Shown here: one piece after another, positions 9,066-58,275 of the stretch
Layout: each line of letters begins with the position of its first letter
How positions within the stretch are numbered: the first letter of the stretch is position 1
Origin: Alteromonas sp. KC3
GTDB lineage: Bacteria > Pseudomonadota > Gammaproteobacteria > Enterobacterales > Alteromonadaceae
NCBI RefSeq assembly: GCF_016756315.1
Contig: NZ_AP024235.1
Span: 3,472,001-3,536,000 of the forward strand
DNA length: 64,000 nt
Direction of reading: 5' to 3'
Notes under the pieces: generated by a model
What the model was told of the DNA's origin: nothing
The model's database searches: none
What the model saw: the letters and a program-made list of their open reading frames with translations, nothing else
Program-made: the position numbers and the translations under genes

Positions 9066-9746
9066 ATGAGAGTCCTACTGGTAGAAGATGATCCAAAAGT
9101 TGCCTCACACATCTCAAGTGGCCTATCTGGCGAGGGGCATGAATGTATAACAGTGGCAGACGGTGCTGCTGGCTTAAGCGAAGCGGTTTCAAATGAGTTG
9201 GACGCCGTTATTCTTGACGTGATGCTTCCCGAATTAGATGGTTTTACTGTGCTTGAAAAGTTAAGGGAACTTGGAAATACAACACCAGTGCTATTGCTTA
9301 GCGCGAAAAGCCAAGTAGAAGATAAGGTAAAAGGCCTTCGCACCGGAGCCAACGACTACCTTACCAAGCCCTTTGCATTTGAAGAATTGTTAGCGCGTGT
9401 TGAAGGGCTAGCAGGCCGGAACCGCGAGAGCGACGATAAAACCCAAATTAAAGTGGGGGATCTCACACTCGATCTGGTTAATCGTAAAGTACTACGGGGT
9501 GAAACTGAAATTGACTTGCAATCAAAAGAGTTTCAGTTACTTGAATGCTTGTTGCGTCACAAGGGTAAAGTCGTCACGCGTAGTATGCTACTTGAGCAAG
9601 TATGGAACTATCACTTCGACCCTCAAACTAATGTAATTGACGTGCATATAAGCCGGTTACGCCAAAAAGTTGATAAGGCATTTAATGTTCCACTTATCGA
9701 AACAGTACGAGGCACAGGGTATCGTATTGCGGATAACCTTGCATGA
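9066..9746 (+). CDS. OmpR-family response regulator
   Basis: 226 residues: an N-terminal receiver with Asp8/Asp9, phosphorylation site Asp51 (VILDVMLPELDG) and Lys in LTKPFA, then a winged-helix DNA-binding domain ending RGTGYRIADN. The resemblance is to regulators of metal or envelope stress systems (CusR/QseB group), but target genes cannot be read from the sequence. The ATG at 9066 starts directly at the first strand; an upstream in-frame start at 9024 would add a non-conserved leader. It overlaps its kinase gene by four bases. Confidence 0.9.
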   Translation: MRVLLVEDDPKVASHISSGLSGEGHECITVADGAAGLSEAVSNELDAVILDVMLPELDGFTVLEKLRELGNTTPVLLLSAKSQVEDKVKGLRTGANDYLTKPFAFEELLARVEGLAGRNRESDDKTQIKVGDLTLDLVNRKVLRGETEIDLQSKEFQLLECLLRHKGKVVTRSMLLEQVWNYHFDPQTNVIDVHISRLRQKVDKAFNVPLIETVRGTGYRIADNLA

Positions 9747-11143
9747 TAGCGATTCGCGACTTTACGCGAAGCTCTAGTTTTCGTGTAGGCGCGCTGCTTA
9801 CTACACTGGCAAGCATTGCCATTGTTCTTATTATTTATTTCTGGCGTTTAACCAGTAGCGATGTTTTTATTACAGAGTCTAATGCTGCGATAAACGCCAA
9901 GGCCGACGCGATAACAACGCTTTATAAAAAGCTGGGTATTGATGCCGTAATCGAGGTAGTAAACAATGGCAGCTTTACCGCTTCTTCGCCCAATCAGTCT
10001 GGTTTATCACAGTACGAAGCTTATCGCACATTTCTTGTTATCAGTCGAAATGATCAAGTGGTGGCAGGCAACCTAACAAGCATTCCCGTTATTACTACAA
10101 GACACCTTTTTGATAACTACAACACGGCTGAGTTGATTGTTACCTATAATGGTGACCAAGAGCCCAAAACGCTTCACCAAGCATTGTTAAAGCAAGTTGA
10201 ACTTGGCGATTATGTCTTGCATGTGGGGCGCGGTATCGATGACCTTTACAGCGCCCAATGGTTTGGCAAAACCTTTAGTTGGATTATTGTTATTCTCTTG
10301 TGTTTGTTGAGCGTTTTAAGCTTCGCCATTGCCGTTTACGTCGTCAACCGAATAAATCGCATGTCACAAACCGCTGACAAGATAATTAAGACAGGAAGCC
10401 TTGAAGAGCGGCTTGAAATTGATAGCAGCTGGGATGACTTAAGCAGTCTTTCTTTTGTTTTTAACCAAATGTTAGACACCATCGAAAACTCAGTGAATAA
10501 CATCAAATCGGTGACTGACAGTATTGCACATGACTTACGCACCCCTCTTGCCCGACTGCGCAACACTCTTGAAAAGATAGAGGACGATAACCTTCGCGAA
10601 GAAACGACACAAGAGGCAGACAATCTGCTAAACATGTTTAACAGTTTATTGCGAATTAGCGGTCTAGAAACAACCAGTAAAAAAGAGGGTTTTTGCCCTA
10701 CTGAGCTGCGCGACATTATCGACGATGTTGTCGACCTTTATCACCCGCTAGCGGAAGAACGAGAGATAAGTCTGCATTCATCGTTACAGCCTGTGTTGAT
10801 GAATGCAGACCCAAACTTGATGTTTCAGGCTGTCGCTAATGTGCTCGATAACGCCATTAAATATTCACCTAGCGGGGGACGTGTTGAGGTATCGTTGAGC
10901 GACACTAACGGGCGCATTGTGTTGTCAGTCAATGACTGCGGCATAGGTGTAAAAGAACAAGAAATAGAAAGCTTGGAGCGCCGCTTTTATCGTGCGGAAT
11001 CGAGTCGAACCAGCAAAGGTAACGGACTCGGTTTGTCACTGGTTTCCGCTATTGTGAAACTACACGACGGTAAACTTTGGTTTGTCCACGACCCGCTTAT
11101 GCAAGGCCGCGGGCTAGGCGTGGTATTTAGCTTCAAGCATTAA
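9743..11143 (+). CDS. Sensor histidine kinase, partner of the OmpR-type regulator
   Basis: 466 residues. Two membrane helices (about 14-34 and 177-200) flank a periplasmic domain of about 140 residues with no recognised fold. HAMP follows at 200-255, then a HisKA domain with His263 in IAHDLRTPLARLR, and an ATPase domain with the N box (Asn366, Asn370), DCGIG near 398 and GNGLGLSL near 426. Translation is coupled to the regulator by an ATGA overlap. The stimulus is unknown. It converges on the DUF3833 gene with a four-base overlap of ends. Confidence 0.92.
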   Translation: MIAIRDFTRSSSFRVGALLTTLASIAIVLIIYFWRLTSSDVFITESNAAINAKADAITTLYKKLGIDAVIEVVNNGSFTASSPNQSGLSQYEAYRTFLVISRNDQVVAGNLTSIPVITTRHLFDNYNTAELIVTYNGDQEPKTLHQALLKQVELGDYVLHVGRGIDDLYSAQWFGKTFSWIIVILLCLLSVLSFAIAVYVVNRINRMSQTADKIIKTGSLEERLEIDSSWDDLSSLSFVFNQMLDTIENSVNNIKSVTDSIAHDLRTPLARLRNTLEKIEDDNLREETTQEADNLLNMFNSLLRISGLETTSKKEGFCPTELRDIIDDVVDLYHPLAEEREISLHSSLQPVLMNADPNLMFQAVANVLDNAIKYSPSGGRVEVSLSDTNGRIVLSVNDCGIGVKEQEIESLERRFYRAESSRTSKGNGLGLSLVSAIVKLHDGKLWFVHDPLMQGRGLGVVFSFKH

Positions 11144-48756: not shown

Positions 48757-50175
<1,419 letters not shown>

Positions 50176-50234
50176 TGTATTCCATTCATAAACACCTGCT
50201 TTGACTTGAAGTGAGTCTGAAGCACGTCAATGTT

Positions 50235-50264
50235 AAGCCCAGTAACCTGTTACTGGGCTTTTTT
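50235..50264 (+). terminator. Rho-independent terminator of gltBD
   Basis: AGCCCAGTAAC and GTTACTGGGCT form an 11-bp stem with a two-base loop followed by six T. It lies between gltD and the convergent ligase-desulfurase gene. Confidence 0.92.
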
Positions 50265-50269
50265 ATGCG

Positions 50270-52909
50270 TTACGCAATGACCTTATGCGCTTCTGCGTCA
50301 GAGGCTAACACACGCCTCACTGCATCTATGCATTTATCAATGTCTTCATCGGTATTCATAAGCCAAGGGCTAATTCTTAGCGTACCTTGACTATTTATCT
50401 GTTCATGAAGAGGTTGTGCACAATGAAACCCAGCGCGAACACAAATCCCATCCCTTTCACTTAAAATATTTGCAATAAATTGGGCCGACATCGACGTTGG
50501 ATTTAACGACACAGGACCAGGAGCATCAATGTCTCCTAATACTAGTGCAGGATAAGATGCTTTAAGTGCTCGCCTTAGTTTCTGAGTTAGGCCATCTACA
50601 TGTTGCTGTACATTGTCCATTCCAATATCCATTAGAAATCGAGCAGCAGCGGCCAAACCGACCACATTCTCCATTGCAGGAGTACCTGCTTCAAAGCGCC
50701 AAGGTATGGGCTTTAAGATATTCTGCTGCGAGCTCACTTTTTCCACCATCGACCCACCCCACTGAACTGGACTTAGCTGCTCTAATGCCTCTGTTCGCCC
50801 CCAAAGTACGCCAACCCCGCTGGGCCCTCCCATTTTGTGTCCACTGAAGACGAGGAAATCCACTGAGAGTTTATTCACATCAATAGGCATATGCGGTACT
50901 GACTGCGCTGCATCTAATAGTACTTTGCAGTGGTATTTCCGGGCTAACTCCACAACCCTGTCAACATCCAGTAAATTGCCTGTTACGTTGGAGATATGCG
51001 CTAGCGTTACCAAGCTATGTGGTGCTCGTTGCATCTCTTTTTCTAACGCAAAGAAATCTACATGAAGTGCATCATTTAAGTTGATAACCGACTTTTGCTT
51101 CCAAGGTAAGAAGTTAGCGTGATGTTCAGCAGCACTGGTAATGACATTTGCAAAGCATGATTGTTGCGCGATAAGGTTTAAACACTCTGTTGTATTTCTC
51201 AGTAATACAATGTTAGCTGGAGTTGCGCCGATAAAACGGGCTATATCAGCGCGTGCCTGCTCAAATTGTTCGGTGATTGCATCGCCGAGAAAGTGAGCAC
51301 CTCTATGCACATTTCCTGTCGCTTTAGATAGTACCCGCGCAACTTCATTCACAACAACATTAGGTTTAGGTGTAGTTGCTGCATTATCCAAATAGCATAC
51401 TTTTTTCCCCATCGGGGAACGCACTTCTCGCAAGGAAAAATGCTCAACCAAAGTGCATTTTGTCGACTCTATCGGCACAAACTCTACAACGTCTTCGGCG
51501 AGCAACTCTGGCGTATTTTTAATTGGTTCGCTTGCTAAATACTTCCCACTGCTTTTGGGCGTCAAGAATGGCTCTTCAATTATGTTCAATTGAACACTTT
51601 TCCCGCCTAAAGCTTCATGCAGTGCTGTGAAGCTAGAGTTGCTGACCTCGCCTCTTTTGACTATTTTTAAAGTGAACTGATTTACCTTGTTCTGTACCAA
51701 AACAAAATTAACAACATTAGGGTTAGAGAGCACAAAGTTTTGTAGCATTCTAGCCGTCATTATATTGCCATGCACCGTTACAATATTTTCTACAACTCGT
51801 CCTTGAACCAGCAGCGCTTTGCGACCGTTTGCTAGGTTTTGCCATTGCGCTGTATCACCAATCGCGTATCGTATAATCGGCATTACCCTATTGTTTAAGT
51901 CAGTAACGACAACGCGCCCTAGAATACCTGGCTCAACAATGAGACGTTCGTTGTCATCAAGCAATTCCACATAAATGTCGTCTTGATAAATAGATACGGC
52001 ATGCTGGTCCACAGGACTTGCGCCAATACTGCCCACTTCACCAGTGCCATACAGGTTCACAAAGTTTACCTTTAACGACTGCTTGATGGTGTTCACCATG
52101 TTTTCAGCAGCCAGTCCTCCGTATGGAATAACCGTCGACAAAGCCGGTAAAACAGTATTCAACTCTGCTGCACGCAACGCAATCCAGTAGATGAACAAGG
52201 GGTAGCCGCGAAGTATTTCAGTGCGACTTTTAGCCAACAACGCTAAGATGGGATCAATCTGTTTACAGATATGCGACCAATCGCCTGCTGTTATTGGGCT
52301 CACAGTAGTTCTTTGCATAAGCCACTGTCGCTCGATTCTCCCTCTCAAGTTACTCATCGTATCTTCATGGCTCCACTGTCTTGTGAGTGTCGCCCAGCGC
52401 AAAAAAGGCCAGATAGCCTCGGGCCCCTTATCAATTAGCCCACACGTTACGTTGCATGCAGATGGTGGTATATCAAGTGTTTTTCTTGCCCAAAAGGTTT
52501 GATGACTTAACGCTATATTGACATTTTCTAGAGCGCGCAAACGATCCCGCTTTGCAAAATCAGTTACAACTGTCATTCTTTCACTTGTACCGCCTGACGC
52601 TAGGGTTTGATGCTCTTCTTTACGGTGAGGAAGTACATTCTGCTCGGGAAAGCCAGTGACGTAATCTGACTTATACGTCAGCGGAATTTGCTCGAAGGTT
52701 TCTATATCATTCAACTGTGCTTGCCAGAATGGCAACGACTTCGCTAGTGATAGTATTTCGTTTCGCTTTTGACTTTGAAGCGCTAGAGAGGGATACCCAG
52801 CTAAATGCTTCTCAATGATAAGTTTTGCGTCTGACCAACACTGAGTGGTAGATAGTTGCTCAAAAAAAGGGAACAATCCATATTCACCAACAAATGACTT
52901 CAAGTGCAT
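50270..52909 (-). CDS. Fusion of PaaK-like adenylate-forming ligase and SufS-like cysteine desulfurase
   Basis: 879 residues in two complete domains. Residues 1-490: an acyl-adenylate-forming enzyme of the phenylacetate-CoA ligase (PaaK) group, with the ATP loop ASGGTSERM at 104-112, YGTGEVGS at 287, IGDTAQW at 350, the hinge GR at 370 and a late Lys in SSGKYL near 456. Residues 500-879: a class V aminotransferase of the SufS/CsdA group with HH at 596-597, DAAQS at 666, PLP lysine Lys692 (SGHKMGG) and the persulfide Cys830 (RAGFHCAQP). All key residues are present in both halves. Start chosen at ATG 52909 with GAGG upstream. It is the second gene after the beta-propeller gene. Function is not known; activation of a carboxylate plus sulfur delivery is inferred. 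Confidence 0.85.
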   Translation of the reverse strand: MHLKSFVGEYGLFPFFEQLSTTQCWSDAKLIIEKHLAGYPSLALQSQKRNEILSLAKSLPFWQAQLNDIETFEQIPLTYKSDYVTGFPEQNVLPHRKEEHQTLASGGTSERMTVVTDFAKRDRLRALENVNIALSHQTFWARKTLDIPPSACNVTCGLIDKGPEAIWPFLRWATLTRQWSHEDTMSNLRGRIERQWLMQRTTVSPITAGDWSHICKQIDPILALLAKSRTEILRGYPLFIYWIALRAAELNTVLPALSTVIPYGGLAAENMVNTIKQSLKVNFVNLYGTGEVGSIGASPVDQHAVSIYQDDIYVELLDDNERLIVEPGILGRVVVTDLNNRVMPIIRYAIGDTAQWQNLANGRKALLVQGRVVENIVTVHGNIMTARMLQNFVLSNPNVVNFVLVQNKVNQFTLKIVKRGEVSNSSFTALHEALGGKSVQLNIIEEPFLTPKSSGKYLASEPIKNTPELLAEDVVEFVPIESTKCTLVEHFSLREVRSPMGKKVCYLDNAATTPKPNVVVNEVARVLSKATGNVHRGAHFLGDAITEQFEQARADIARFIGATPANIVLLRNTTECLNLIAQQSCFANVITSAAEHHANFLPWKQKSVINLNDALHVDFFALEKEMQRAPHSLVTLAHISNVTGNLLDVDRVVELARKYHCKVLLDAAQSVPHMPIDVNKLSVDFLVFSGHKMGGPSGVGVLWGRTEALEQLSPVQWGGSMVEKVSSQQNILKPIPWRFEAGTPAMENVVGLAAAARFLMDIGMDNVQQHVDGLTQKLRRALKASYPALVLGDIDAPGPVSLNPTSMSAQFIANILSERDGICVRAGFHCAQPLHEQINSQGTLRISPWLMNTDEDIDKCIDAVRRVLASDAEAHKVIA

Positions 52910-52976
52910 ACCAGCGCCTCGCCTGGGCAATTTTTAACCATCCTACCACAAAATTTTAACAATTCACTATATGATA

Positions 52977-53011
52977 TGCTGACGTTAAACTAGGTAAGAC
53001 TTACGTCAGCA
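52977..53011. promoter_or_regulatory. Nine-bp inverted repeat between propeller and fusion genes
   Basis: TGCTGACGT (52977-52985) and ACGTCAGCA (53003-53011) pair across 17 bases in the 110-bp gap. It may be an operator for the fusion gene or an attenuator after the propeller gene; no T-run follows. Confidence 0.5.
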
Positions 53012-53019
53012 ACTTGATA

Positions 53020-53925
53020 TCATTTGAGCTCAATCCAAGAAGGTTGCGAGGCATTTTTGACAATTCGATATAATTCAGACCCATCAACATTGATGATATG
53101 GATATCATACAACCCCTCAACATTATCAGAGACAAAAGCAATTCGTGATCCATCAGGAGACCAGACAGGATCCCAGTCAGAGAGTTCGTTATTGGTCAAT
53201 CGCCTTTCATTTTCCCCATTGATATCCATTACGTAAATTTCCCGGTTGCCATCTCTATCAGACATATAAGCAACGTATTTGCCATCGGGAGAAACTTCCG
53301 GATGCCAGTCCTCAGCATCATTATTTGTTAGCGTTATTATGTTGCTACCATCACGATTTGCTATGGATATTTCACTTGTCCCTGTCTTAGAATGAAAAAC
53401 AATTCTCCCATCAGGCATAAATGAGGCACCGCCACCGCTTAGTCCCTGAATTTTTTTTTGTTCAGTGCCATCAGCATTCATGATCCAAATTTCTTCGTTG
53501 GTACTACCATCTTCGTTTTTTTTGTTTCTGGAAAACAAAATATGTTGGCCATCAGGCGACCACGAAGGAGCAGCATCCCATACGTTTGCGTCTGTGGTTA
53601 ACCTAACAACGTGGCTACCGTCAACATTAGCTGAGTGAATAGACCAGGTTTTGTAACTATCATATTTCCCATAGAAAGCGATTTGAGTTCCATCAGGTGA
53701 TATAACGGGATAACCATCTGCTAACGTATAACTGGTAAGTTTAGTTTTCTTTTTTTCAACTAAATCAATAGTATAAATTTCACGCTTCTTTCCCTCAAAC
53801 GACGAGTAAATAAGCGCGTAGGACTCAGCGTCGAATGCATTAGCCTGAGGAAAAAATAAAAACGAAAGCGCGATAGAACAAAATAGGTATCGGTTGTATC
53901 GTTCAAGTTTGAAAATGTAGTTCAT
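53020..53925 (-). CDS. Exported TolB-like beta-propeller protein
   Basis: 301 residues. The signal peptide ends near FPQANAFD. The body holds about six PD40-type WD-like repeats, seen as SPDGTQIAFYG, SPDGQHILFSRN, MPDGRIVFHSK, SPDGKYVAYMSD and SPDGSRIAFVSD, so it folds as a propeller in the periplasm. Beta-propellers of this kind bind proteins or sugars; no catalytic residues can be named. AAGGA precedes the ATG. It is upstream of the ligase-desulfurase fusion on the same strand, so co-transcription is possible. Confidence 0.85.
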   Translation of the reverse strand: MNYIFKLERYNRYLFCSIALSFLFFPQANAFDAESYALIYSSFEGKKREIYTIDLVEKKKTKLTSYTLADGYPVISPDGTQIAFYGKYDSYKTWSIHSANVDGSHVVRLTTDANVWDAAPSWSPDGQHILFSRNKKNEDGSTNEEIWIMNADGTEQKKIQGLSGGGASFMPDGRIVFHSKTGTSEISIANRDGSNIITLTNNDAEDWHPEVSPDGKYVAYMSDRDGNREIYVMDINGENERRLTNNELSDWDPVWSPDGSRIAFVSDNVEGLYDIHIINVDGSELYRIVKNASQPSWIELK

Positions 53926-54291
53926 GTCAGTCCTTAAGAAACCTGCGCAAGCATCAGGTTAGTCTGTTACTTGCCTAAACTGTTGCGTTATATAAAGGTA
54001 ACGAGTGTAAATTGTTAGGGTATGGAAAGGCTCTGCTAACTGACGTGTAAAACACGCTCTTAATCCTAATACAAGAGATATTGATAGCGTCGTAGCTTAC
54101 GACATTTGTCATACTACTGCCTAAAGCGTGAGGGGAAAAACAGCATTTATACCTAATACCTTGACTGAAAACCGCATACCTAAAATAGGTTAATTTGCGG
54201 TCGATTTGCCTAGTAAGGTAGTTGAACTGATTGGCATTCGGCTCTACTATTTTTGTAACACTATTTCACTAGTAAAAAACGAGAAAGCGCC
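53926..54291. promoter_or_regulatory. 366-bp intergenic region
   Basis: No gene is seen between two divergently transcribed genes. It contains a nested inverted repeat, CCGCA (54172) with ACCTA-AAA-TAGGT inside (54178-54190) and TGCGG at 54196-54200. Promoters for both neighbours must be here. Confidence 0.5.
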
Positions 54292-54747
54292 ATGAATTAC
54301 CGCCAAACTGCATCATCTATTTCACGCCCTGCGTTCGCTTCAGCATTGGCTTTTTATGTGCTTTCTCTGTCATCGGTAACGGCAGATACACTGTCAGTTG
54401 AAAGTAACGAAGTTGCGCCTACAGCAAAAACGTCTGTATCGTTAACACAACCAGATACGGTGTCTTGCCCTGCAGCATTTCACGACGTTACCATTACCGA
54501 TGACGCTACGCAGTGCCAGCAGTTTGAAACACAAGTCCCTGCTGCAATGGTATATCACACCAAGCAACAGCCAAACGACGTTGTTGCTTTTTACCAAGCA
54601 AATATGTCGGCGTTAACCGTTCACGCGCCAGTAAATCAGCGCACCCTTCTTACCTCAGAAAACAACTATACTCGCATTGTTATTTCACCAGACAATACTG
54701 GTGCACAAGTCGACATACTTGTTACACCAAAAACTAACACACAATAA
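54292..54747 (+). CDS. Exported hypothetical protein, 151 residues
   Basis: A signal peptide (hydrophobic stretch about 15-30, ending near SVTADT) suggests a periplasmic protein. The mature chain is Thr/Asn-rich with a cysteine pair (SCPAAFHD and TQCQQFE) and beta-strand-like segments. No family recognised. A hairpin terminator-like structure lies downstream before the next gene. Confidence 0.7.
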   Translation: MNYRQTASSISRPAFASALAFYVLSLSSVTADTLSVESNEVAPTAKTSVSLTQPDTVSCPAAFHDVTITDDATQCQQFETQVPAAMVYHTKQQPNDVVAFYQANMSALTVHAPVNQRTLLTSENNYTRIVISPDNTGAQVDILVTPKTNTQ

Positions 54748-54871
54748 AATCAATAATTTAAACATCAAACTAACTCGCGGTACGCCAAACACTCTAATTA
54801 GATCTTAGTGCACATATAAAACTGGCATCTGCCTTGCAAAATCAACTACAGAACCCCTTGGTTTAATCATA

Positions 54872-54895
54872 GCGTCATTTTTATGACGCCATTTT
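54872..54895 (+). terminator. Hairpin terminator after the 151-residue gene
   Basis: GCGTCAT-TTTT-ATGACGC followed by CATTTTT, in the gap before the DUF2726 gene. Confidence 0.6.
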
Positions 54896-54916
54896 TGACT
54901 GATATTTGCGAGGAAT

Positions 54917-55661: not shown

Positions 55662-56363
55662 ATGAATAAAATTGGTATTTTAGGCGCAATGGACGAAGAA
55701 GTTGCATTGCTAAAAGCCTCATTGGATAACCTCAAAGAAACACAATGGAAACACCTTACATTTTATGAGGGAAGCTTAAGTGGAATGGATGTTGTGTTGG
55801 TCAAGTGCGGCATCGGCAAGGTAGCTGCAGCTATAGCGACTGCGGTTCTTATTGAGCAGTACGCTCCTGATGCTGTAGTTAATACTGGCTCTGCAGGCGG
55901 TTTTGATAAAAATTTGAATATTGGCGACTTAGTTATTGCTAGTCACGTTATTCACCATGATGCCGATCTTACCCACTTTGGGTATAAACTTGGTCAATGT
56001 GCAGGCATGCCTGAAGACTATCGCTGCGACGAGCAACTAATGACTGCCGCTGGCCGTGCTGCGGCGGATATTGAGAATCTTCAATCTACCACAGGCCTAA
56101 TTTGTACTGGTGACGCTTTCATTGGTAGCGATGAAGCCGTAGCAGAACTTCGCGCTAACTTCCCTGACATGAAAGCGGTGGAAATGGAAGGTGCAGCAAT
56201 TGGACAAACCTGTCATATGCTAAACACCCCATTCTTAGTCATTCGATCTTTATCTGATATTGCGGGTAAAACATCATCGGTAAGCTTTAAAGAATACCTC
56301 GACACTGCAGCCAAACACTCTGCACAGCTTGTGATGGCAATGATTAAACAACTTGCCAAATAA
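55662..56363 (+). CDS. mtnN: 5'-methylthioadenosine/S-adenosylhomocysteine nucleosidase
   Basis: 233 residues of the MTA/SAH nucleosidase family, which remove adenine from methylthioadenosine, SAH and 5'-deoxyadenosine. Start motif IGILGAMDEEVALLK, substrate loop VKCGIGKVAAAIAT, GSAGGF, and VEMEGAAIGQTCH with catalytic Glu and Asp in RSLSDIAGK. Its stop and the cbiB start are adjacent, so it heads a cobalamin-salvage operon; 5'-deoxyadenosine is a by-product of radical-SAM and B12 chemistry. Confidence 0.97.
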   Translation: MNKIGILGAMDEEVALLKASLDNLKETQWKHLTFYEGSLSGMDVVLVKCGIGKVAAAIATAVLIEQYAPDAVVNTGSAGGFDKNLNIGDLVIASHVIHHDADLTHFGYKLGQCAGMPEDYRCDEQLMTAAGRAAADIENLQSTTGLICTGDAFIGSDEAVAELRANFPDMKAVEMEGAAIGQTCHMLNTPFLVIRSLSDIAGKTSSVSFKEYLDTAAKHSAQLVMAMIKQLAK

Positions 56364-57311
56364 ATGAGTGACTTAATTAGCGGCATTCACTATCAGTCGC
56401 TACTTATTTTATGGCTCGCCATTGCCATTGACGCAGTCTGGCAATGGCCCGAGCGTACCCACCCACTGACTTTTATGCGCTACCTTGTTCGTCAAATGGG
56501 GCATAAAGTGCTCCCGTCATCGGATTTTGGTCCTACTCAACACTATATTTCGGGCGCCCTCGCTGCACTTGTTTTACTTACGCCGTTAATTGTGTGCTTG
56601 GCAATACTCGTCTATATGGCCCAGTATCCCATTTTCTTTGAAGCGGTGATCATGGTTGTACTTCTCGACTTCGGGTATCAGCGACAACAGTACAAAAAAG
56701 TACTAGCCAATGTTGGGCGAAATAAAAAGTCTTTGGCGCGGGAAATGGTTGCCACAATTACGGCAAGAGAATGTGACCGTCTAACAGACATCGGCATTGC
56801 AAAAGCGGCTATTGAGTCTCTATGGCTTAAGTTTCTCTATCTGTACTGTGGAGTTATATTCTATTTTGTAGTGGCAGGGCCAATTGGCGCATTAATTTAT
56901 CGATTGCTATTGCTAACCTCTTGGCAATGGCATTATCGCGACAATGCAATGAAATATTTTGCGCTTCCCGTAAGAAAGCTAGTGGCAATTTTGGTGCTCC
57001 CTCCAGCACTATGCGGCGCACTAACAACCTTGCTCGTTAGCAATCCCATACGTTGTGTTAACGCCATAAAAAATGCCACGGCAAGAGATAAAACATCGCT
57101 CCTTTTAGCGCTTTTCGGTGGGGCCCTTAATGTCAAGCTGGGAGGCCCTGCTATTTATGCAAATAAAAAGTACCGATATCCAAGAGTTGGCGGCAACCAA
57201 GACGTGAGATATTCACACATGCTGTTAGCACGTAATACAGTTGTGTACGCCATGATTGCATTTGGCGCACTGGCCTCTTTGTCTCTTATTATATTGGTTA
57301 AAATACCGTAA
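56364..57311 (+). CDS. cbiB: CbiB/CobD-family cobalamin biosynthesis protein
   Basis: 315 residues, polytopic, of the CobD/CbiB family that attaches aminopropanol phosphate to cobyric acid. Signature segments are LAIAIDAVWQWPERTHPL at the start and AREMVATITARECDRLTD in the middle, with LGGPAIYANKKYRYPRVGG late. The organism may therefore salvage cobinamide rather than build the ring, because no other ring genes are in the window. It begins on the base after the mtnN stop. Confidence 0.88.
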   Translation: MSDLISGIHYQSLLILWLAIAIDAVWQWPERTHPLTFMRYLVRQMGHKVLPSSDFGPTQHYISGALAALVLLTPLIVCLAILVYMAQYPIFFEAVIMVVLLDFGYQRQQYKKVLANVGRNKKSLAREMVATITARECDRLTDIGIAKAAIESLWLKFLYLYCGVIFYFVVAGPIGALIYRLLLLTSWQWHYRDNAMKYFALPVRKLVAILVLPPALCGALTTLLVSNPIRCVNAIKNATARDKTSLLLALFGGALNVKLGGPAIYANKKYRYPRVGGNQDVRYSHMLLARNTVVYAMIAFGALASLSLIILVKIP

Positions 57312-57360
57312 TGGGCGGCGTGATACGCTTTCATTCAAGGCTTAAATAAGGGAAACTTTT

Positions 57361-58275
57361 GTGATTTCGCGACTAACGCTATTCGTTGTTCAATTCTTTT
57401 TTTTATGCATAGTGAATGCATCTAGCGCAGCGCCTGATATTCATCGCGAAGCCTTTGATGCAACAAACAATACCGCCACGGCTAATATCGAAAACGCAGC
57501 GAAACACACTGAATCACCGTTACCAAAAGACTATAAAATAGTGAGCCTTGCCCCCCACCTTACCGAGTGGGTATACAGTTTAGGGCTCGATAAGCATTTA
57601 GTTGCAGTAAGTGATTACAGTGACTTTCCAAAGGAAGCAACGCTCCTTCCTCGCGTGGCTGATTATCAAGGTGCAGATATAGCGAGCATAGTTGCACTAC
57701 AGCCCAATTTAGTTCTTGCTTGGGATGGCGGTAATAAGCCTCAGGATATGAACAAACTTGTTGCACTAGGGCTCAATGTTTTTAAAAGCAGAATTACCAC
57801 TATTGACGATATTGCAACGGAAATAACTCGTCTTGCGAACCTGACTCACACTCAGTCAAAAGCAAAGGAGTTAACCGCGCATTTCAGTACTACGCTTGAC
57901 GAACTACGAATACGGTATAAATCGACTGCGCCCACATCGGTATTTTATTACTCGTGGACCGCACCGCTAATGTCAATTGGTTCGAATGCGTGGGCAAATC
58001 AATTGCTTAAAGTCTGCGGTGCGCAAACCACCTTTATTGATAGCCCTGTCGATTATCCGCAAGTTTCCGTCAAAGATGTCCTCATTAGGCAACCCAAGGT
58101 ACTGGTTGCAGCAAGTAAATCATCAAAAGATGAATTGGAAATATTCTGGCAACCCCATCGCGAACACCTTTCTGCCCCACTTATTGTAGTAAACCCAGAT
58201 GTTACAAGCCGCTTCTCACTTCGTATAATTAATGAACTAAAAATATTGTGCAAAGGTATAAACGAAAACGCATAA
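57361..58275 (+). CDS. btuF: Periplasmic cobalamin-binding protein BtuF-like
   Basis: 304 residues with a signal peptide (ending near SSAAP) and a helical-backbone metal receptor fold: IVSLAPHLTEWVYSLGLDKHLVAVSDYSDFP, LQPNLVLAWDGGN, and a late FSLRIINELK. It captures B12 for an ABC importer; BtuC and BtuD are not in the window. The start is GTG at 57361. It is 49 bp after cbiB, fitting a salvage operon. Confidence 0.88.
   Translation: MISRLTLFVVQFFFLCIVNASSAAPDIHREAFDATNNTATANIENAAKHTESPLPKDYKIVSLAPHLTEWVYSLGLDKHLVAVSDYSDFPKEATLLPRVADYQGADIASIVALQPNLVLAWDGGNKPQDMNKLVALGLNVFKSRITTIDDIATEITRLANLTHTQSKAKELTAHFSTTLDELRIRYKSTAPTSVFYYSWTAPLMSIGSNAWANQLLKVCGAQTTFIDSPVDYPQVSVKDVLIRQPKVLVAASKSSKDELEIFWQPHREHLSAPLIVVNPDVTSRFSLRIINELKILCKGINENA

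Follow-up and report, generated by a model that had tools for sequence, protein, structure and literature searches.

The window examined here is a 64,000-nucleotide stretch of the Alteromonas sp. KC3 genome (contig NZ_AP024235.1, positions 3,472,001 to 3,536,000). It contains a minus-strand gene (50270..52909) whose 879-residue product comprises a PaaK-clade adenylate-forming ligase (residues ~1-462) followed by a SufS-type cysteine desulfurase (~497-870). The same two parts stand side by side as separate genes in other bacteria, often in clusters resembling those for peptide antibiotics, and by this gene-context argument ligase and desulfurase together probably put sulfur onto an acid. To the more specific reading, that the fusion is a one-chain sulfur-insertion enzyme in which an acyl adenylate (acyl-AMP) and a cysteine-derived persulfide would give a thiocarboxylate or an acyl persulfide, we assign a probability of roughly one half.

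The fusion gene and its domains

The reading frame begins with ATG at 52909, with an in-frame TTG at 52930 as an alternative start, and is free of internal stops over 50270..52930. The original prediction described a fused ligase and desulfurase with active residues retained, and each of those residues (the adenosine triphosphate (ATP) loop, YGTGE, IGD, Lys692, and Cys830) was located in this intact frame. It also allowed that two separate genes had been joined by an assembly error. The host genome is a single 4.56-Mb contig, 100% complete, and the ligase retains its C-terminal SGK ahead of a linker of ~35 residues (approximately 463-496; 51422..51523), modelled at low confidence with a predicted local distance difference test score (pLDDT) of ~23-36. 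An assembly artefact is therefore unlikely. All coordinates within the gene refer to the minus strand.

The ligase domain (51524..52909) is defined by remote profile matches and is modelled with a pLDDT of ~90 for residues 211-447. Pfam returned no match to the N-terminal part, even at E 10, and the DVU_1553 and PaaK models of NCBIfam matched it at 3e-17 to 6e-12, far under their cut-offs. As the PaaK equivalog cut-off is missed (44.9 vs 646.3 bits), the domain is not PaaK itself and belongs only to the same superfamily clade. Profile matches to the PaaK structures 4r1l, 9s3l, and 2y27 were obtained, with PDB chain 9s3l matched at E 1.6e-11; structure searches with the whole fusion model gave result lists filled by SufS-domain matches. 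Alignment places the ATP-loop segment LASGGTSERM at residues 103-112 (52574..52603) and the lysine of the C-terminal SGK at Lys456 (51542..51544), presumably the catalytic lysine position of adenylate-forming enzymes. YGTGE (residues 287-291; 52037..52051) and RYAIGD (residues 347-352; 51854..51871) were located in the translation. The ATP loop, YGxxE, RYxxGD, GR, and C-terminal lysine together assign the domain to the PaaK-like adenylate-forming superfamily. The profile matches show the ligase label for the N-terminal half to be correct, though remote.

The desulfurase domain (50300..51421) was identified by profiles (Aminotran_5, E 2.3e-102; SufS TIGR01979, E 5.1e-107) and by structure search. 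It has a class V pyridoxal phosphate (PLP) fold in which alignment recovers both the PLP Schiff-base lysine, Lys692 in SGHKM (50834..50836), and the persulfide cysteine, Cys830 in the RxGxxC loop RAGFHCAQP (50420..50422). The curated NCBIfam SufS cut-off is missed (358.2 vs 475.1 bits), and the domain is therefore filed as SufS-like only. A separate SufS-type gene in the host genome is 33% identical to it. Two specialized desulfurases were considered and rejected. For the family 2A encapsulin cargo enzyme, the NF041166 cut-off is missed (299.7 vs 800 bits) and the N-terminal part is a ligase. For the DndA/SspA enzymes of phosphorothioate defence, no Dnd or Ssp family was found among the 19 window open reading frames (ORFs; 36762-63011) scanned with Pfam, and the DndA/SspA models match the domain merely as general relatives.

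Ligase-desulfurase gene pairs in other bacteria

The search for the same architecture and its neighbours in other genomes, which the original prediction had proposed, led to eight pairs beyond the host in which a SufS gene directly follows a ligase gene. Their hosts are Klebsiella, Vibrio coralliilyticus, Nonomuraea, a Pseudonocardiales metagenome-assembled genome (MAG; L125), Rhizobium binae, a gammaproteobacterial MAG (L075), and two further gammaproteobacteria. The Klebsiella pair occurs in two records with ligases 98.6% alike and is counted once. With these separate-gene counterparts, the fusion goes far beyond a chance observation. For pairs with annotated or clear start codons, the spacing ranges from a 4-bp overlap (R. 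binae, Klebsiella, and L075) to a 10-bp gap (L125). Public annotation of the pairs reads "CoA ligase plus aminotransferase".

The pairs emerged from several searches. A tblastn comparison of the fusion with plasmids gave 802 records, and R. binae p6 was the one with both parts adjacent among the 20 listed; follow-up searches from this pair led to those of Nonomuraea, Klebsiella, and V. coralliilyticus. A scan of genome contigs gave 79 loci, three of them with SufS directly after the ligase, namely L075 (its SufS gene cut by the contig end), L125, and a Patulibacter locus (L099). The last was rejected as a ninth pair: SufS lies ~220 bp after the ligase, but that ligase belongs to a different lineage and lacks the cysteine motif described below. 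L100, where a distant desulfurase gene lies ~1.6 kb from the ligase, was also not counted. A class-level profile search (369 genomes) led to 30 fetched loci, in which SufS stood next to the ligase solely at the host fusion locus, and a profile built from three pair ligases matched 2 of 394 genomes of the order; in each of these a SufS gene adjoins the ligase gene. The fusion ligase alone found no relative in the genome-contig search or in the viral-contig search, and a phage search returned matches to the desulfurase part only, among 10 listed of 56.

Phylogeny of the two components

In a tree of 45 ligases, the eight pair ligases, a verrucomicrobial ligase (L079), and the fusion form one group (support 96/91), from which the fusion branches off first; L079 is nested beside the Rhizobium/L075 branch (92/69). 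The eight pair SufS proteins likewise form one group (95/94) in a tree of 43 sequences. The corresponding value is 97/94 in a 46-sequence tree, which additionally held three long rows and in which the fusion SufS had joined L100 on a very long branch. The order of the pairs is identical in the ligase and SufS trees, with (Rhizobium, L075) set against (Nonomuraea, (Klebsiella, Vibrio)) together with (L125, (the two further gammaproteobacteria)). This shared branching order indicates that the pair moved as one module, and its inheritance as a unit is supported by gene adjacency as well as by the matching trees. Patulibacter falls outside the pair groups in both.

A cysteine motif in the ligase

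All eight pair ligases carry a Cx4C motif (CSDVEC, CSSSAC, or CSGTEC) ~50 residues after the ATP loop, a feature noticed after the fact. At the aligned position, in the A4/acyl-pocket region, the fusion has CNVTC (Cys152 and Cys156; 52442..52456), the second cysteine aligning with that of the pairs. A survey of 138 distinct ligase-like ORFs, 117 of them checkable, found C-x3-4-C in nine: six from five pairs (both Klebsiella copies included), the fusion, L079, and L072. This count missed L125 and predates the two further gammaproteobacterial pairs. Only L079 and L072 combine the motif with the absence of a SufS neighbour; CYMDC of L072 looks like chance, whereas CSGEIC of L079 does not. The original prediction would have been undercut if homologues always proved to be two unrelated neighbours without a common substrate, and the pairs, with their matching trees and shared cysteine motif, present a different picture.

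In a profile alignment, the Cx4C segment overlies YGMFTGGLG of a PaaK structure, which we take to be part of the PaaK acyl pocket. From this overlap we infer that a cysteine of the motif may relay sulfur onto the acyl-AMP; alternatively, the motif may bind a metal or form a disulfide.

Gene neighbourhoods of the pairs

Nonribosomal peptide synthetase (NRPS) genes, or hybrid polyketide synthase (PKS)-NRPS genes, adjoin six of the eight pairs (Klebsiella, Vibrio, Nonomuraea, L125, and the two further gammaproteobacteria). All of these six except L125 also have a relative of the Vibrio TauD alongside; at L125, a methyltransferase gene follows the pair. A DUF6817 gene is found in the Vibrio, Klebsiella, and Nonomuraea clusters. 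The Vibrio plasmid PKS-NRPS cluster (L067, 7028-29866) holds TauD, ligase, SufS, serine O-acetyltransferase, and phosphopantetheinyl transferase genes plus a cysS copy, possibly for self-resistance, and the related NRPS cluster on a Klebsiella plasmid (L068) holds the first five. Serine O-acetyltransferase implies a supply of cysteine, which favours the idea of a shared substrate.

The ligases of R. binae (L031, 9767-11269) and L075 (9773-11287) have a common N-terminal extension. A PqqD/RRE-like reading of it, made by eye, was dropped (P0002 had no Pfam match at E 10). Just upstream of the R. binae ligase lies a gene for 135 amino acids (9357-9764) with no Pfam or NCBIfam match. The R. binae pair also stands beside an ABC-three-component operon; a defence-system reading was rejected, as PADLOC produced only general matches to DndA/SspA models and NRPS genes adjoin six of the other pairs.

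Genomic setting of the fusion

The fusion sits in an insertion of ~4 kb next to gltD. Between gltD and conserved downstream genes, a segment at ~50180..54490 has no DNA match in any of 14 relatives compared, out of 29 other genomes of the genus in which gltD was found: homology stops at ~50171-50178 and resumes at 54499-54909, leaving the fusion and its upstream neighbour uncovered in all 14. At a threshold of E 1e-8 or better, the fusion ligase is present in 1 of 59 same-genus genomes, the host itself. Across a phylum sample it was matched in 16 of 398 genomes including the host, the other 15 at no more than 52 bits.

The upstream neighbour, on the same strand (53020..53925, minus), encodes a PD40/TolB-like beta-propeller protein according to its profile. 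Because of its repeats, this gene finds some match in 59/59 genomes of the genus, the best elsewhere reaching 75 bits vs 690 to itself. Given these weak matches and the joint absence from the relatives, the fusion and the PD40 gene look like one insertion, and we infer that the fusion arrived by horizontal transfer. Some relatives (L051, L058, and L059) show longer gaps unmatched by the window (~1.5-2.4 kb) between gltD and a DUF2726 gene, so this interval may be an insertion hot spot. Elsewhere in the window (55662-58275, plus strand), genes for a phosphorylase-family protein, a CobD/CbiB-like protein, and a periplasmic binding protein stand in a row that looks like cobalamin salvage.

Proposed function and alternatives

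Family membership and retained motifs suggest the following route. The N-terminal ligase would bind ATP and a carboxylic acid to form an acyl-AMP, while the C-terminal domain, with PLP, would convert L-cysteine into alanine and a persulfide on Cys830. The persulfide sulfur might then reach the acyl-AMP directly or via Cys156/Cys152 in the acyl pocket, and the product would be a thiocarboxylate or an acyl persulfide. The fusion would be a joined version of the two-gene module, by putative descent, and in its host would act without an NRPS. A broader proposal can be put forward tentatively, as possible rather than probable. In it, a PaaK-clade ligase with an acyl-pocket cysteine pair takes persulfide from a dedicated SufS partner or domain and thiolates the acyl-AMP without a sulfur-carrier protein; the module would recur, usually with TauD, beside NRPS/PKS genes of Gammaproteobacteria and Actinomycetota, marking unrecognized thiocarboxylate natural products.

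The interpretation in the original prediction is partly supported. Its idea that both activities may act on one substrate draws strength from eight pairs with matching trees, the serine O-acetyltransferase genes of Vibrio and Klebsiella, and the cysteine motif of the pair ligases. Extension to the fusion itself fares less well, and a number of observations weigh against the sulfur-insertion reading. Both fusion domains lie on long branches. Placing the fusion ligase with L069 instead of the pairs is not rejected by the approximately unbiased (AU) test (p 0.366), and placing it with Patulibacter is only marginally disfavoured (p 0.0635). Its identity is 18-24% to the eight pair ligases, 21% to Patulibacter, and 24% to L079; being no closer to the pairs, it gains no tie to them from identity alone. 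The grouping of the fusion ligase with the pair ligases is weakened by the long branches and unproven. In both free trees the fusion SufS stands apart from the SufS proteins of the pairs (a tree that unites them is not rejected, p 0.244), and by identity it comes closer to ordinary SufS (37%), so that the domain does not clearly belong to the pair clade. The fusion motif is Cx3C, one residue shorter than in the pairs, and its cysteines fall where the model has low confidence. The Cys/His positions (C..H and CxCG) kept by most of 21 aligned ligases are lost in the fusion. CSGEIC occurs in the verrucomicrobial ligase (L079, 9338-10666) with no SufS gene beside it, and Patulibacter has a SufS neighbour with a different ligase lineage and no cysteine motif. 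The host genome contains no NRPS condensation domain, no NRPS genes were found in the stretches examined around the R. binae and L075 pairs, and no TauD was found at the L125 pair.

The PaaK family normally forms acyl-CoA, and TauD stands beside five of the eight pairs, with a methyltransferase gene after the L125 pair. The ligase might thus give its acyl group to coenzyme A (CoA), a carrier protein, or an amine, with the desulfurase providing sulfur for some other modification of that molecule (such as a thiol or thioether installed after TauD hydroxylation) and no thiocarboxylate formed. The strict ligase-then-SufS order, the shared branching order, and the one-chain fusion suggest direct hand-over instead, and the fusion genome lacks a condensation domain; we regard this alternative as unlikely, though not negligible.

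A chance fusion of domains that do not cooperate, with the desulfurase supplying sulfur for general use and the ligase being a polysaccharide-type CapK/PaaK enzyme, would agree with the scarcity of SufS neighbours among the fetched PaaK-like relatives (3/79 loci), with the separate SufS-type gene of the host, and with the unproven tie between the fusion and the pairs. The common branching order of the ligase and SufS trees across eight pairs makes it improbable. The versatility of class V enzymes and the missed NCBIfam SufS cut-off (358 vs 475 bits) would accommodate a PLP domain acting on its amino acid in some other manner, such as by lyase or selenocysteine lyase chemistry, with the ligase activating that amino acid or its product and sulfur transfer playing no part. 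Retention of the RxGxxC loop in the fusion and in all seven complete pair SufS proteins (the eighth, from L075, is truncated where its contig stops) leaves little room for that scenario. That the fusion is a degrading, functionless passenger of a recent insertion would fit its occurrence in 1 of 59 genus genomes, its long branches, and the lost Cys/His positions, but 879 codons without a stop and the retention of all core catalytic residues make this very improbable.

Comparison with known systems

The fusion ligase shares with PaaK, DVU_1553, and CapK-like enzymes the ATP loop, YGxxE, RYxxGD, GR, and C-terminal lysine. It differs in its identity of only ~20%, its acyl-pocket cysteine pair, the fused SufS, and the loss of Cys/His positions that most relatives keep. 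E. coli and B. subtilis SufS, which work with SufE/SufU, have in common with the fusion domain the PLP lysine, HH, DAAQ, the persulfide cysteine, and the fold; the fusion domain is instead joined to a ligase and scores under the NCBIfam SufS cut-off.

An adenylated carboxylate also meets a desulfurase-derived persulfide in ThiF/MoeB with IscS and rhodanese, and in thioplatensimycin-type systems. These differ in the adenylating fold or in the acceptor, and they divide the work among separate proteins and carrier proteins. The nearest functional parallel found in the literature is LarE, a PP-loop enzyme that converts an activated carboxylate to a thiocarboxylate, with sulfur from its own cysteine or from a 4Fe-4S cluster. 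It resembles the fusion in outcome but is unrelated and, to our knowledge, carries no fused desulfurase. In nickel-pincer nucleotide synthesis, this sulfur insertase is reported to put sulfur on a nicotinic-acid-derived substrate (PMC9283937).

The open-access literature, covered through titles and the starts of abstracts and with most subscription journals outside its scope, gave no account of the fusion or of the ligase-SufS pair. Few carrier-protein-free routes to thiocarboxylates are known to us, and if the proposal is true, a self-contained enzyme working from free acid, ATP, and cysteine could serve well as a model system and as a biocatalyst. The ligase-SufS pair would likewise serve as a searchable marker for clusters with sulfur chemistry that are otherwise read as encoding a CoA ligase and an aminotransferase. 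Set against these systems, the proposed chemistry has known precedents; what sets it apart is how the domains are arranged, that no carrier protein seems to be involved, and that the pairs often have NRPS surroundings.
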